Positions 1 to 37,955 of a stretch of 39,014 bases of DNA are shown here, piece by piece (positions within the stretch are counted from its first letter, which is position 1; every line of letters begins with the position of its first letter). Position numbers and translations under genes: made by a program. Below the pieces are notes generated by a model that was not told the origin of the DNA, searched no databases, and saw only the letters and a list, made by a program, of their open reading frames with translations. The DNA comes from a virus. Location of the stretch: positions 1 through 39,014 of the IMG/VR virus record IMGVR_UViG_3300012988_000023, one strand, 5' to 3'.

Positions 1-34
1 GCGGACTTCGGCCTATCGCCCCGCCGATGCCGTG

Positions 35-6736: not shown

Positions 6737-6883
6737 ATGCCCGAGGTGTTGGGGCAAGCGCGAAAGCGAGTGCGCTTTACGATTTGGGGGGTGATGTGTG
6801 ATGCCCCGGAGAGACCCTTAAGCCTGCCTACACTGTCGCATGTATTTGATATCCCACATAAAATAGGTAGGACATCAAGATAG
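6737..6883 (+). CDS. 48-aa hypothetical protein with strong SD
   Basis: An AGGAGG (6723-6728) lies eight bases before ATG 6737, the best SD in this gene-poor stretch. The product is 48 residues, basic near the N-terminus (GQARKRVRFTIWGV), and its end (LSLPTLSHVFDIPHKIGRTSR) could be one helix-turn-helix, though this is uncertain. A 26-residue ORF from GTG 6644 ends at TAG 6722-6724, the stop overlapping the SD, which could be a leader peptide. No homologue recognised. Confidence 0.4.
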   Translation: MPEVLGQARKRVRFTIWGVMCDAPERPLSLPTLSHVFDIPHKIGRTSR

Positions 6884-29136: not shown

Positions 29137-29547
29137 CTAGAACGGATCGGGCCCGTAGTCGCCCGCATAGTCATCGTTTGCGTCCGATTGGGGCTGAGCC
29201 CCGCCCGGGCCTTCCGAGCGCGTTTTAGGGCCGCCTAGGAGCACTAGACGCGACGAAACGATCTCTACCTTTTGCCGCTTCACATTGTCGCGATCGGTGA
29301 ACTCGCGTTGACGCAGCCGACCCTCCACGAAAACGGGCTCGCCTTTCCGCAACAGTTTTGAAAGGCCTTCGGCCCCGTTGCCGAAAACCACGACATCATG
29401 CCATTGGACCTCGCTCTTCCGCTCTTTGGCGGCAGAGTCGAAATAGGTTTCATTCGTGGCCATGGTGAAATTGAGCGCCTTCCCCCGGAGCACGGGATCC
29501 TTCCCCACGTTCCCGAGTAGCACCACGCGATTATAACCTTCCTTCAC
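29137..29547 (-). CDS. ssb: Single-stranded DNA-binding protein
   Basis: 136 residues from GTG 29547, which overlaps the stop of the upstream fusion gene as GTGA; the longer frame to 29616 lies inside that gene. The OB-fold signature is clear: NRVVLLGNVGKDPVLRG, FTMATNETYFD, VQWHDVVVFGNGAEGLSKLLRKGEPVFVEGRLRQREFTD, VEIVSSRLVLLGG. The tail is acidic and ends DDYAGDYGPDPF, like the protein-interaction tip of bacterial SSB. It coats ssDNA made by the nuclease and interacts with repair proteins. Last gene of the minus-strand recombination operon. Confidence 0.95.
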   Translation of the reverse strand: MKEGYNRVVLLGNVGKDPVLRGKALNFTMATNETYFDSAAKERKSEVQWHDVVVFGNGAEGLSKLLRKGEPVFVEGRLRQREFTDRDNVKRQKVEIVSSRLVLLGGPKTRSEGPGGAQPQSDANDDYAGDYGPDPF

Positions 29548-30983
29548 GCTGCACCCTCCATTTCCTCTTGCGAATACAAGCCCTGTAGTGCGCCCGGCAC
29601 GATGATCCGAGCGCATTGGACTCCGGCTTCCTTCCGGAGCATTTGATCGGGTCGCTTATCCCAAGCGCTTCCGTGTTTGATCATCCCGGCTTCGCGAGCC
29701 TGATCGATCGTGTAGCGGATCGTGGTCTCCTTCTGCCCTTTCGCTTTGCCGCGCCATTCGGCGAAAGTGGCATCGCCGTCGACGAATTCCAGATATTCAC
29801 AATCGGGATGCGAGCGCGCGCGCGAGATCAGAAAGTGCGCCGTCGGGCACGGCTTGCCCTCGACCACGTTGAAACAGTCGAGCGATTCGAGTGCCCCTAG
29901 CCCGAGCTCACGCCCGCGGATGATCACTGCCCAGATCGCGGCCGGGTTCTTAAACTTCGCGTAAAGCCCCGAGCCGTGGAGCCCTTGGGCCAGCTTGAAC
30001 GCGGCCCCGAGCGATGTTGGCTCTAGTCCGAGATCCCAAGTAGGCGCCGCTACGATTGCTTGCGAGCGATCCGGGCTCGTGGTTTCTGCTCCGTCGGCTT
30101 TGCGATCTTCGCCCGGTGTGGCTTCGCTTTGAGGCTCGGGCGCTTGTTTGCGTTCTGGACGATCGCTTTCGCTTGGTTCGCTGTTTTCATGCACTGGCGT
30201 CTCCATCGGGGTTCGGGTCTCGTAGAGTTGATCGAAGGCGATCGGCGCGTCGTATCGGAGCGTGACGAGCCGGATCGTTGTCGGGAGCCACGCGAGCGCG
30301 GCTTGCAACGCGGCCGAAACGGCGGGCGTAGCTACCTTGGCGGGGTTCGCTCGTACGGCATCCATCAGTTGCTCGATCGTCGCGTAGGCTGCGAGTAGCT
30401 TTGCCGCGCCCTTCGGGCCGACCCCTTGCACCCCGGCTACGTTGTCCGTTTGATCGCCAACGATCGCGAGGTAATCGCGCATTTGCTCGGGCCAAACGCC
30501 GAACTTTTTACGCACGCCATCGCGGTCCAATAGCTCGCCCGTCATCGGCGAAGACCACTGCACGCCGAACTCTACGAGCTGCGTCAAATCCTTGTCGGCG
30601 CTGCAAATCAGCACCTCGTGATCGCGCTTCACGGCCGCGCGACAGGCCGTTGCCAAAACATCGTCAGCCTCGAACCCGTCGCACTCCCAAAGTAAAAGAC
30701 CCATCCTTTCTAGGGTCCGTTTGGTGCGGGCCATCTGCTCGTACGCGCTGATCGGCCGTAGCTCGCGATTGGCTTTGTAGCCGGGATCGATCTCCTTTCG
30801 GAAGTTTCGGGGCGAATCGCAACAGATCCCGATCAGCTGATAACCTTCAATTATTTTTCGGATGTGATCGATCGAGCGGTCGTGGGCCTCGCAAATGTCT
30901 TGGCCGGCGGTCGAGTGCCACGCGGGCCAGAAAATAGAGCCCAGATCGATCAGGACGACCGGCCCGCAATCGTTGCCGATCAC
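29544..30983 (-). CDS. FEN-type 5' nuclease fused to RecT-like annealing protein
   Basis: 479 residues. Residues 1-250 are a PolA-N/FEN-type 5'-3' nuclease with all key motifs: D13 (LIDLGS), FRKEIDPGYKANR (R62, K70, R73), GFEADD (E105, D107, D108), SADKD (D130, D132), VGDQTDN (D177, D180) and the helix-hairpin-helix GVQGVGPKGAAK. A charged linker (about 255-312) leads to a RecT-like single-strand annealing domain (313-475): PTSLGAAFKLAQGL, RGRELGLGALESLDCFNVVEGKP, IRYTIDQAREAGM, RPDQMLRKEAG, GLYSQEEM. Such nuclease and annealase functions are normally two proteins. It overlaps the SSB start (GTGA) and the upstream gene (ATGA). Confidence 0.88.
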   Translation of the reverse strand: MIGNDCGPVVLIDLGSIFWPAWHSTAGQDICEAHDRSIDHIRKIIEGYQLIGICCDSPRNFRKEIDPGYKANRELRPISAYEQMARTKRTLERMGLLLWECDGFEADDVLATACRAAVKRDHEVLICSADKDLTQLVEFGVQWSSPMTGELLDRDGVRKKFGVWPEQMRDYLAIVGDQTDNVAGVQGVGPKGAAKLLAAYATIEQLMDAVRANPAKVATPAVSAALQAALAWLPTTIRLVTLRYDAPIAFDQLYETRTPMETPVHENSEPSESDRPERKQAPEPQSEATPGEDRKADGAETTSPDRSQAIVAAPTWDLGLEPTSLGAAFKLAQGLHGSGLYAKFKNPAAIWAVIIRGRELGLGALESLDCFNVVEGKPCPTAHFLISRARSHPDCEYLEFVDGDATFAEWRGKAKGQKETTIRYTIDQAREAGMIKHGSAWDKRPDQMLRKEAGVQCARIIVPGALQGLYSQEEMEGAA

Positions 30984-34521: not shown

Positions 34522-34745
34522 CGCGGCAGAGGGGGCCGCGCGTGATCGATCTGGCCGCTGAGAGGGCGGCCAGGGGGGCTGTCCAGGCTGGCGCTATGTC
34601 GGCCTGGATCGAGGGCTCAGAGGTAGTGGTGCAGTTCCCCGGCGGGCAGCGCCAGCGGCTAACGCCCCATCACCTCCGGATCTGGCGAGACAATTTCGCA
34701 GCGTTGCTAGGCAACATCGAAGCGGCCGAGCGGGGCCGCAAATGA
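34518..34745 (+). CDS. Small hypothetical protein
   Basis: 75 residues from GTG 34518 (GTGA overlap with the integrase). Basic start, then WIEGSEVVVQFPGGQRQRLTPHHLRIWRDNFAALLGNIEAAERGRK, a short beta hairpin plus helix seen in other phage mini-proteins without known role. The stop overlaps the methyltransferase ATG (ATGA), so the three genes are coupled. Confidence 0.65.
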   Translation: MTRQRGPRVIDLAAERAARGAVQAGAMSAWIEGSEVVVQFPGGQRQRLTPHHLRIWRDNFAALLGNIEAAERGRK

Positions 34746-35611
34746 TCGTGCACTCCGATCCTCTGTCGGCTGTGCACGTTGCCGATTGCCTCAGCGCCGA
34801 AGCTGCGATCGAGGCGATGGCGGGGCAACGCGCCGATGCCCTGATCTTCGATGCGCCGTTCAGCGCGAAGACTCACGAGGGGCACAAGAACGGCAAGCTC
34901 ACCACGGAGCGGGCGGCATCGTTCGCACGCGCGCAACGCGCTCGTGGGCTCGACTCCGCCGAGATCCGTTACGCGAGCAAGAGCGGCGATGCGGCGATGC
35001 GGCGCGATATCGTTTACCCGCATTTCGACGGGCCAAAGATCGATCTCTTTTGCCGCGTGTGGCTCCCCCTTTGCGCTGGATGGGTCGTGAGCATTACGGA
35101 CGATGTGCTCGCGCCCGAATGGGCTAGCGCCTTCGAGCAAGCCGGGCTCTATGTGTTCGCGCCGCTCCCGCTCGTGGAGCTCGGAGGGCGCATCCGAGTG
35201 TGCGGCGATGGCCCTAGCTCGTGGACTTGCTGGATCGTGGTCGCTCGCCCGCGTGGTGCGCCCTATTCGAAATGGGGCACGTTGCCCGGTGCATACGTGC
35301 AATCGGCGGAGCGTGATTTCAACCGTAAGGGTGGGTCGAGCCGGATCGTAGGCGGCAAGCCTTTTAAAGCCATGTGCGCGATCGTTGGGGACTACTCCCG
35401 CCGGGGTGATTTGATCGTCGATCCGTTCTGCGGCGGAGGCACCACGCTAGCCGCTGCGAAACACATGGGCAGGCGATCGATCGGGCTCGACCGCTCGGAG
35501 CTGCACGCGAAGATCTCAGCGAAGCGCGTGGCCAAGACGCGCGAGCAAATGAGCCTGTTCGAAGCATCACCCGAGCGGGTGACATTCAAGCAAGAGGGGC
35601 TATTTAAATGA
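34742..35611 (+). CDS. DNA methyltransferase (N4/N6 type)
   Basis: 289 residues, ATG 34742 (ATGA overlap). Motif order is beta-class: the catalytic motif IV comes first (DAPFSAKTHEG, about residues 37-47) and the S-adenosylmethionine motif I comes last (VDPFCGGGTTLAAAKHMGRRSIGLD). The catalytic tetrapeptide is DAPF rather than the common DPPY, so the enzyme is a variant or may be impaired. It would modify adenine or cytosine amino groups in phage or host DNA, possibly against host restriction. Target is not known; the phage is very rich in GATC and CTAG. Confidence 0.85.
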   Translation: MIVHSDPLSAVHVADCLSAEAAIEAMAGQRADALIFDAPFSAKTHEGHKNGKLTTERAASFARAQRARGLDSAEIRYASKSGDAAMRRDIVYPHFDGPKIDLFCRVWLPLCAGWVVSITDDVLAPEWASAFEQAGLYVFAPLPLVELGGRIRVCGDGPSSWTCWIVVARPRGAPYSKWGTLPGAYVQSAERDFNRKGGSSRIVGGKPFKAMCAIVGDYSRRGDLIVDPFCGGGTTLAAAKHMGRRSIGLDRSELHAKISAKRVAKTREQMSLFEASPERVTFKQEGLFK

Positions 35612-35928
35612 TCCTGATCGATGACGATTTGTTCGAGGCCTCCGGGCTCACGGACGATCTCATGCACGAGCCCGATGGGGGGCACGGCTTGCGCATCGCG
35701 AGGCGGATCCAGGTCCTTACCTGGCTCTATGCCGGGGGCACGCATGGCGGGCCGCTAGCGCCTGCTCTCAGCGCCGCGATCGCGTGGTGGGCAGAGCATC
35801 GCCCCGAGCTCCGATCGTGGCGCCTAGCGTCGCTAGGGGCCGTGCTCTTGCAGCTCGAAGCGCTCGGGGTGGTCGACACATTCAGCGAATGCGTAGGCGG
35901 ATTTCACGTGAAACTCAGAGAGGGCTAA
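35608..35928 (+). CDS. Hypothetical protein next to methyltransferase
   Basis: 106 residues from ATG 35608 (ATGA overlap). Alternating helices and short strands (RIQVLTWLYAGGTHGGPLAPALSAAIAWWAEHRP, WRLASLGAVLLQLEALGVVDTF) suggest a small winged-helix-like domain. It precedes the replication initiator gene and may be a regulator or accessory of replication. No family recognised. Confidence 0.65.
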   Translation: MILIDDDLFEASGLTDDLMHEPDGGHGLRIARRIQVLTWLYAGGTHGGPLAPALSAAIAWWAEHRPELRSWRLASLGAVLLQLEALGVVDTFSECVGGFHVKLREG

Positions 35929-35931
35929 CCG

Positions 35932-36636
35932 ATGGAACTAGATCCGATCATCGTTGCAAAACTCCCCACTGAAGATCTCCAAGCCCTATTGCAAATCGCC
36001 GCTAGGCTGGCGCCGCTAGGTGTTGCGATTGAGCTCAAACGGTCGCGATCCGCCATGGCGAAAGCCGCCGGCCAAGCCAGCGCCCAAGCCCGCCGGGAGC
36101 GATTCGGCACAGCACAGCCCCCGAACGCACCCGAACACCGTTCGAACACCGAACAGACCCGAACGGACTCGAACGAACCCGAACGGAGCTCGAACGCCGA
36201 ACACCCTCGAACGAACCCGAACAAAGCCGAACAGGGCTCGAACGAAATGGGGGGGGTAGGGGGGGGATCTCTCTCTCTGATCTCAGATCTAAGATCAGAA
36301 GATCCAGAGAGAGAGCGCGCGCGCGAGACCCGCGCCGAACGGAAGCCGAAAAGGGTAAAGGCCCCGACTTGGCGCCGCGTGCCGGAGGGCTGGCAACCGA
36401 CCGAGCAGCACCGGCAGATCGCCTCCGAATGCTGCGTCCCCTTCGAGCTAGAGCTAGCCAAGTTCCGCGATCACGAGTTCAGCACGCCGAAGCACGATCC
36501 CGACGCGACGTTTCGCAATTGGTTGCGCAACGCGCGCCCGGCCAAATCTTCCCCCTTTCCAGCCCTCCCGGCTCCGCCGAAAAACGGGCACCACGCCACA
36601 AAGGCCGAGATTGATCGCATGTTGGGGCTCGCGTGA
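35932..36636 (+). CDS. Replication initiator/helicase-loader-like protein with embedded iterons
   Basis: 234 residues, ATG 35932 (SD GAGAGGG). The N-terminal 60 residues are helical. Residues about 62-104 are a disordered repeat (SNTEQTRTDSNEPE, SNAEHPRTNPNKAE; 16 residues per unit) that corresponds to the DNA iterons at 36122-36243. The C-terminal domain (VPEGWQPTEQHRQIASECCVPFELELAKFRDHEF, DPDATFRNWLRNAR) is typical of phage DnaT/replisome-organiser proteins. It overlaps the helicase GTG (GTGA), and like lambda O it seems to carry its origin inside its own gene. Confidence 0.8.
   Translation: MELDPIIVAKLPTEDLQALLQIAARLAPLGVAIELKRSRSAMAKAAGQASAQARRERFGTAQPPNAPEHRSNTEQTRTDSNEPERSSNAEHPRTNPNKAEQGSNEMGGVGGGSLSLISDLRSEDPERERARETRAERKPKRVKAPTWRRVPEGWQPTEQHRQIASECCVPFELELAKFRDHEFSTPKHDPDATFRNWLRNARPAKSSPFPALPAPPKNGHHATKAEIDRMLGLA
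36122..36243. repeat. Iteron array (candidate replication origin)
   Basis: Fifteen CGAAC words in 122 bases. Thirteen fall on a nearly helical spacing: 36122, 36132, 36143, 36150, 36160, 36170, 36180, 36191, 36198, 36208, 36218, 36228, 36239; extra copies are at 36174 and 36212. The spacing pattern 7-10-10-10-11 repeats with a period of 48 bases (36143, 36191, 36239), matching a 16-residue protein repeat. This is the arrangement expected of initiator-binding iterons in a lambda-type origin. Confidence 0.75.
36249..36315. other. G8-TA-G8 tract and nested hairpin beside the iterons
   Basis: Two runs of eight G (36249-36256 and 36259-36266) separated by TA are followed by CTCTCTCTCTG (36269-36279) and its exact complement CAGAGAGAGAG (36305-36315). 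Between them TGATCT (36278-36283) pairs with AGATCA (36292-36297). The G runs could fold into a quadruplex and the purine/pyrimidine arms into a hairpin or triplex. Next to the iterons this may be the melting or regulatory part of the origin. Confidence 0.6.
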
Positions 36637-37955
36637 GCGAGGCCCTAGACGGGCTCCGGCTCGCTGAACGCGTGCTGAGCGCGTGGTTTTACGATCAGCG
36701 GTTTAAAGCCGCTTGGAAGCCCGAGCCCGACTTGTTTTTGCTGCCCGCCCATCGGGCCATGGCCGAGCTAATGGCCGCTCGGGGGCCGGCCCTCACGGAT
36801 ACCGGGCTAACGCTCGAAATGCGCCGCATGGGGCAGCTAGAGCTATTCCCAGGGCTAGGTGCGGGCTCCGTGCAGCAAGGGGCCAACGCGATCGCCGATA
36901 TCGTGCACGGCTGCCCGGTCGTGCTCGACCCCTGGGAAGCGCTGGCCGAGCTCCGGGCGGATGTGGCCTACGGCCGGCTCCATGGCGGGGTTTCCAACGC
37001 GCTCAGGATGACGGCCGAGGCCCGGAGCCTGCCCGACCTAAAAGCGGGCATTGCGGCCGCGCTAGGGGCCGCGGATGGGCTCGGAGCGGTAACGGCTGAG
37101 CTCAGCACGGACGGGGCCGATGCCGAGCTAGCGCGGGTGTTTGGCGAGCCCCGCGTCTTTGGGTGCCCGACCGGCTCGGCTTCGCTGGATCGCACTACAG
37201 GCGGGCTACGCCCCCTCGATGTGTGGGCGATCGGGGCTCCGACCAATTGGGGCAAGAGCTCCTATTTGTGTGCGCTGTATCGGCGCGCCATTGGCACCGA
37301 TCGGCGCGTGCTGATCGTGTCGGGCGAAGACCCTTTCGCCCTCTACATGCAACGCATCCTAGGCGGGCTCGCGGGCGTGAATGCGTGGCGCATGCGTGAG
37401 GCTCGTTTGCTGCCCTTCGAGCGCGAACGCGTGCGGGCAGCGCGAGCCCAGATCCCAACGCATCCGCTCTTCGTGAATGGGATCGGGCGCGCCGTCGAAT
37501 CGCTCGCGGCCGACATCCGGAGCGTGCTCACGGCTAGCGAGGTACCGCCCGATCGCTGGATCGTGATGGTCGATTATCTGCAAGCGTTTCGATCGGCACA
37601 CAAGCATCAGGATCGCCGCGCTGAGATCATTCACTGTTCGCGCCTGTTCACCGATGCGATCAAGACCGCGGGGGCAGCCGGGATCCTCACCTCGCAAGTA
37701 ACCCGCGGGGCTGATGGGAAACTCAAGATGCGCGAGGCCGATGACATTATCCACGCGGCCGAGGTTGGGCTTTATGGCGAGATGGAGGATCGCGTGGAGC
37801 TCGACTTTGACGGGCGCAAACAGGTCGATGAGCGCGCTCGATCTTTCTTCGTAGCGAAGATCAAAAACGGACCAAGCGGGTTCACTGCCCCGCTCACTTG
37901 GGACGCGAACGCAGCAACGTTCGGAGATAACTCCGATGAGTTAGAGGCAGCATAA
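36633..37955 (+). CDS. DnaB-like replicative helicase
   Basis: 440 residues, GTG 36633 (GTGA overlap). An N-terminal helical domain (RLAERVLSAWFYDQRFK, PAHRAMAELMAARGPALT) resembles DnaB-N; the C-terminal RecA-like domain has Walker A GAPTNWGKSS (201-210), catalytic Glu in SGEDP (about 232), Walker B VMVDYLQ (D314) and TSQVTRG motif. It should act as a hexamer at the replication fork, loaded by the protein encoded just upstream. It is the major replication enzyme of the phage; no DNA polymerase was found, so host polymerase is probably used. Confidence 0.9.
   Translation: MSEALDGLRLAERVLSAWFYDQRFKAAWKPEPDLFLLPAHRAMAELMAARGPALTDTGLTLEMRRMGQLELFPGLGAGSVQQGANAIADIVHGCPVVLDPWEALAELRADVAYGRLHGGVSNALRMTAEARSLPDLKAGIAAALGAADGLGAVTAELSTDGADAELARVFGEPRVFGCPTGSASLDRTTGGLRPLDVWAIGAPTNWGKSSYLCALYRRAIGTDRRVLIVSGEDPFALYMQRILGGLAGVNAWRMREARLLPFERERVRAARAQIPTHPLFVNGIGRAVESLAADIRSVLTASEVPPDRWIVMVDYLQAFRSAHKHQDRRAEIIHCSRLFTDAIKTAGAAGILTSQVTRGADGKLKMREADDIIHAAEVGLYGEMEDRVELDFDGRKQVDERARSFFVAKIKNGPSGFTAPLTWDANAATFGDNSDELEAA

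Follow-up and report, generated by a model that had tools for sequence, protein, structure and literature searches.

Genes of the replication region

The window (the whole 39,014-nt stretch of viral DNA analysed, IMG/VR record IMGVR_UViG_3300012988_000023) contains three adjoining genes of interest on the + strand: a small gene of 106 aa (35608-35928), the initiator gene of 234 aa directly downstream of it (35932-36636), which holds a repeat array and a candidate unwinding element, and the gene that the initiator gene abuts at its downstream end, encoding a DnaB-like replicative helicase (36633-37955; Pfam DnaB_C, 2e-19; phrog_19, 4.8e-26). This helicase is presumed to be the client of the candidate origin described below.

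The initiator product hits phrog_1408, a family of replication initiation proteins, at E=4e-5, and in named phages its relatives carry the annotations primosomal protein I, O-like or replication initiation protein. A Pfam search with the window protein gave no significant domain, no HTH and no DnaT match, and a PDB sequence search with its C-terminal profile gave no match up to E=1; two related initiator genes match Pfam DnaT (E 1e-4 and 2e-6). In the structural model, pLDDT is 90-97 across residues 141-200, and residues 64-123 are predicted, with low confidence, to be unstructured. A C-terminal domain (residues 144-205; 36361-36546, +) is predicted to adopt a DnaT-like ssDNA-binding fold: the only PDB entries listed in a fold search with the model were two of DnaT, 6aeq (a modest match, with Z 4.8 and rmsd 3.4 over 60 residues) and 4ou6 (Z 4.7). 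The PHROG match, the predicted C-terminal fold and the adjoining DnaB-like helicase gene support the assignment of 35932-36636 as encoding a DnaT-like replication initiator, in agreement with the initial annotation of this DNA, which had read it as a replication gene.

The product of 35608-35928 has no match in Pfam, PHROG or NCBIfam. Its model (pLDDT only 51) contains three helices and a beta hairpin, and the fold matches of this pLDDT-51 model have Z ≤3.7. It is possibly a winged-helix DNA-reading partner of the initiator, and the domain that reads the array may reside in this product instead of in the initiator. By analogy with characterised in-gene origins, it is plausible that the initiator binds the array in its own gene.

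A direct-repeat array constrained at the DNA level

The array (36122-36243, +) comprises 15 copies of CGAAC, 15/15 of them on the + strand. Thirteen main words form groups of three (36122, 36132, 36143), five (36150, 36160, 36170, 36180, 36191) and five (36198, 36208, 36218, 36228, 36239), and two overlapping extras start at 36174 and 36212. The steps are 10,11,7,10,10,4,6,11,7,10,4,6,10,11 for all 15 words, or 10,11,7,10,10 / 10,11,7,10,10 / 10,11 when the extras are left out, with the groups separated by 7-bp steps; this recount agrees with the positions and the mostly 10-11-bp steps with 7-bp breaks given previously. Tandem Repeats Finder reported a repeat of period 48 at 36120-36244 (2.6 copies, 79% matches), the top tandem-repeat score in the window and close to the ~2.5 units of a 48-base repeat originally described. 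The reverse complement, GTTCG, has a single copy in the initiator gene (36140), overlapping one CGAAC.

In 200 genome-wide Markov simulations no 122-bp span contained more than 5 CGAAC, compared with the 15 found, and CGAAC is the densest 5-mer of the 39-kb window, any other reaching ≤8 copies per such span anywhere. Neither the tandem-repeat scan nor the 5-mer density scan identified a second comparable array in the window. Under a synonymous null, in which the peptide is fixed and synonymous codons are redrawn (20,000 draws for this array), the expected CGAAC count was 3.25 ± 1.56 and the maximum 10, again compared with 15; in a 200-draw version of the test the array count was reached in 0/200. 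Since all three codon frames are represented among the words (2, 7 and 6 in frames 0, 1 and 2, respectively), a single peptide motif cannot account for them, and three-frame use together with the excess over the synonymous null indicates that the DNA is kept, not the peptide. The array is therefore a set of multiple direct repeats constrained at the DNA level. Single-strand folding of the array itself is nothing special (z -0.7), and the GC-skew check proposed in the initial annotation showed no clear switch at the array.

The placement of all sites on one face of the DNA, as first suggested, is contradicted by the spacing. For a helical repeat of 10.5 bp/turn, the three successive groups, 13 main words in all, lie at about 0, 190-240 and 35-85 degrees and the resultant for a common phase is only 0.14; a common period fits best at about 9.6 bp (resultant 0.84). 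Words are in phase inside each group, and the 7-bp step rotates the next group by ~120 degrees, so sites are phased within groups and have no common face; one helical phase for all repeats is thus ruled out. Phasing is general among plasmid iterons, without being strictly defining (PMC5043065).

The array in the nearest relatives

The nearest relative (L001; IMG/VR 3300045283_000258), which was the single close relative in the conservation comparison, is 92% identical to the window in the helicase, 86% in the upstream gene and about 61-64% in the initiator. It has an array at the same place, composed of the words GTGAACAA/GGGAACAA, with CGAAC changed to GTGAACAA; the core GAAC is common to the words of both genomes and the flanking letters differ. 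The ten sites of L001 (steps 9,11,13,10,11,15,9,10,11) also form three groups, here separated by steps of 13 and 15 bp, and the 34-bp unit is not a multiple of three and is consequently out of frame. The 16-residue in-frame repeat that had been regarded as the constraint in the window is thus not the conserved thing, and persistence of the array despite a different word, unit length and peptide argues for a DNA function. Conservation of DNA spacing rather than of protein sequence had been proposed as the comparison to make, and in L001 peptide and word change while an array with steps of roughly one turn is retained; the opposite pattern, a protein repeat retained with altered DNA words, is not what this close relative displays. 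In a more distant relative (L002), CGAAGC(A) words are found in the same place, at 23, 11, 22, 13 and 22 bp.

A soft, synonymously invariant element beside the array

The stretch after the array, 77 bp long, includes a G8-TA-G8 tract (36249-36266, +; identical in L001); apart from this G8 pair, no run of G or C in the window reaches 7. Next to it lies the candidate unwinding element (36267-36315, +), containing a CT repeat, five GATC sites (36266, 36279, 36286, 36293 and 36301, the first at its boundary) and a hairpin with perfect 11-bp arms (36269-36279 / 36305-36315), and ending in a (CG)5 alternating tract (36316-36325, +) that is nearly the same in L001. By nearest-neighbour energy, 36267-36306 is the second-softest 40 bp in the 39-kb window (99.95th percentile), with about 60% A+T compared with 80% in the equivalent stretch of lambda. 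Among the 22 identical-residue codons of 36249-36330 there are no synonymous differences between the window and L001, as against 26/73 in the remaining C-terminal part of the initiator gene and 123/402 in the helicase gene. As a single strand, the element folds better than shuffled sequences in both genomes (z -2.8 in the window, -4.2 in L001), and a search of IMG/VR for the CT/GATC pattern returned L001's contig only. The CT/GATC stretch after the array is likely to be an unwinding element. With its words changed, its helicase nearly identical and its unwinding element frozen, the window/L001 pair represents a natural experiment on the joint change of an initiator and its sites.

The softest 40 bp of the entire window (6843-6882) are located outside the replication region. 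GATC is densest in the window at the element (five sites in 39 bp), and a gene encoding an N6/N4 DNA methyltransferase (34742-35611, +) is found two genes upstream of this GATC-rich stretch.

Repeats in related initiator genes

About 30 related initiator genes were gathered from IMG/VR and named phages, and the lags between repeated in-gene 5-mers were compared with a same-protein synonymous null. The excess was highest at lags of 11 (z 6.8) and 22 bp (z 6.7), with lag 33 also raised (z 4.0) and further raised lags at 5, 7, 14, 20, 21 and 23 (z 4 to 5); because the genes are related, these z values overstate their independence. The phrog_1408 and phrog_1032 initiators (phages of Mycobacterium, Bifidobacterium, Klebsiella, Acetobacter and others) have a related C-terminal domain and, like the window, a central array, and many have steps close to 11 or 22 bp, although the repeat words differ between lineages. 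Examples are Acetobacter phage phiAX1 (GCAAA at steps of 22,11,12,11,12,11), Vibrio phage XM1 (GAAAACC at 23,23,23, in frames 0,2,1,0) and two further relatives, L037 and L041 (four TCGCGA at exact 11-bp steps, all frames used). Many of these initiators carry an N-terminal winged helix or DUF1376 in the same protein, whereas that of the window has no Pfam HTH. A contig profile search with the C-terminal alignment confirmed nothing further.

The softest 40 bp is mid-gene (relative position 0.42-0.60) in 13/29 genes, compared with 4.3 ± 1.5 expected under the synonymous null. The word-count test with the same null identified no significant array in L004, D_HF2_7, Marvin, Bartholomew or SalSI8. 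Lambda O, used as a positive control, has four annotated iterons (steps 20, 24, 23) with its softest stretch immediately after them (relative position 0.51), but its best 5-mer count was reached by 52/200 shuffles; the test is weak on lambda because there are only four iteron copies, and a negative result therefore leaves a lambda-type origin possible.

In L036, L037 and L041, the TCGCGA words at 11-bp steps form two clusters ~150 bp apart that use all frames, one falling in the sequence that codes for the winged helix, the other in the linker, within ~500 bp after position 2001. A second type of repeat follows the array in several genes: CGACC at 7-bp steps (L003:3542-4501 and L017:2583-3500), GGGAACA at 7-bp steps (L043:2001-2861) and, in mycobacteriophage BigNuz (L029:1222-2118), GGAACAG at 8-bp steps.

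Comparison with known origins

Plasmid iterons are usually about 20 bp long, with two-turn spacing, and lie outside the initiator gene. Iteron plasmid origins of the P1, R6K and pSC101 type resemble the window locus in having direct, helically phased sites (phased within groups in the window) beside a soft region; their initiators bind as monomers (PMC5043065). In oriLambda, which maps inside gene O and combines near-perfect inverted repeats of 19 bp with a 40-bp A+T-rich region (PMC5043065), the repeats are mid initiator gene, as in the window, with the softest stretch directly downstream and the gene for a replication partner next. The initial annotation went further and likened the CGAAC words to the iterons of lambda O, which does not hold: lambda has four inverted repeats of 18 bp (or 18-19 bp), 20-24 bp apart (PMC5043065), for O dimers, and the window 13-15 direct words of five bp about one turn apart. 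In addition, the gene downstream of lambda O encodes the helicase loader P and that downstream of the window initiator the helicase itself, and no HTH is recognised in the window initiator; the small upstream gene may supply one. In a lambdoid phage, silent changes to the in-O iterons abolish plasmid transformation (PMC7466680). In SPP1, oriL lies in gene 38 and its direct repeats are bound by gp38; as judged from its published description, this origin shares with the window in-initiator-gene direct repeats, an unwinding element and a phage-supplied DnaB-family helicase (PMC6316719).

With these precedents (oriLambda, the in-O iterons and SPP1 oriL), an in-gene iteron origin is already a known kind. 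The window locus differs from known origins in its short direct word at one-turn steps, its three rotated groups, the change of word beside a frozen element and the spread of the 11-bp in-gene periodicity in the initiator family, features for which no description was found in the literature searched. For one-turn in-gene iterons, that literature yielded the lambda/Stx and SPP1 cases only, most subscription papers being outside its coverage, so this is no proof of absence.

A candidate replication origin within the initiator gene

Compared with these systems, the locus reads best as an iteron origin within a gene, arranged in the manner of oriLambda or SPP1 oriL, and 36122-36325 is very probably a phage replication origin inside the initiator coding region that acts via the array, the unwinding element and helicase delivery. 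The original interpretation, that the gene carries its own origin, thus stands in part: the initiator gene and the in-gene-origin layout (a DNA-level array that recurs in relatives, followed by a soft, unchanged stretch) are supported, while the single face, the 16-residue constraint and the lambda-type iterons are not. Binding, opening, helicase loading and origin function are inferred from the parallel with lambda and SPP1. The initiator, perhaps together with the 35608-35928 product, would bind the CGAAC words with one subunit per helical turn, giving bound sites in three groups of 3, 5 and 5. The assembled complex would strain the DNA and open the soft CT/GATC stretch just downstream, which adjoins the stiff G8TAG8 block; the C-terminal DnaT-like domain of the initiator would then hold the opened single strand and deliver the DnaB-like helicase of the adjoining gene.

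Control and partition systems, such as plasmid control iterons and parS arrays, also make use of short phased words, and the array could instead be bound by the initiator, or by some other phage protein, in copy control, autoregulation or partition, with the origin elsewhere. The second same-word cluster in the winged-helix coding part of L036, L037 and L041 would fit such a role, but the soft, synonymously frozen neighbour and the recurrent array-then-soft order match oriLambda, and the window offers no other comparable repeat array, making this alternative unlikely. It is very improbable that the region is simply a low-complexity N/E/T/R/S linker, grown by tandem duplication and without DNA function: the duplicated 48-bp unit and the predicted, low-confidence lack of structure in residues 64-123 would be expected of a linker, whereas words that use three frames and exceed the synonymous null, the array kept in L001 with another word and an out-of-frame 34-bp unit, the 11-bp DNA periodicity across the family and the flanking element free of synonymous change would not. 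Least probable of all is a packaging (pac/cos) or recombination site located by chance in a replication gene, since the hairpin, G-runs and GATC cluster, unusual as this local structure is, lie between a DnaT-like initiator and a helicase gene, and related initiator genes of other phages keep both the array and the mid-gene soft stretch.

Beyond the in-gene origin proposed for the window, the family data can tentatively be extended to a widespread class of in-gene phage origins, with short (5-6 bp) direct words read once per turn, a filament-like run of monomers and co-evolution of word and reader, a possibility to be entertained rather than favoured. If true, the initiator would form a filament-like run of monomers, not dimers on 20-bp iterons, and in the window phage this run would be broken into three rotated groups. 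The word would turn over between close relatives with the neighbouring unwinding element frozen, implying joint evolution of the word and its reader under a double coding load. The findings at the window locus also suggest a way to find origins from sequence alone in many temperate phages without an annotated origin, by searching the middle of DnaT-like initiator genes for words at 11-bp steps across reading frames.

Elsewhere in the window, a 479-aa ORF on the opposite strand (29544-30983, -) encodes a 5'-3' exonuclease (Pfam 5_3_exonuc_N and 5_3_exonuc) with a C-terminal RecT-like annealing domain, and is thus an exonuclease-annealase fusion. The gene next to it (29137-29616), on inspection by eye, possibly encodes a single-strand binding protein.
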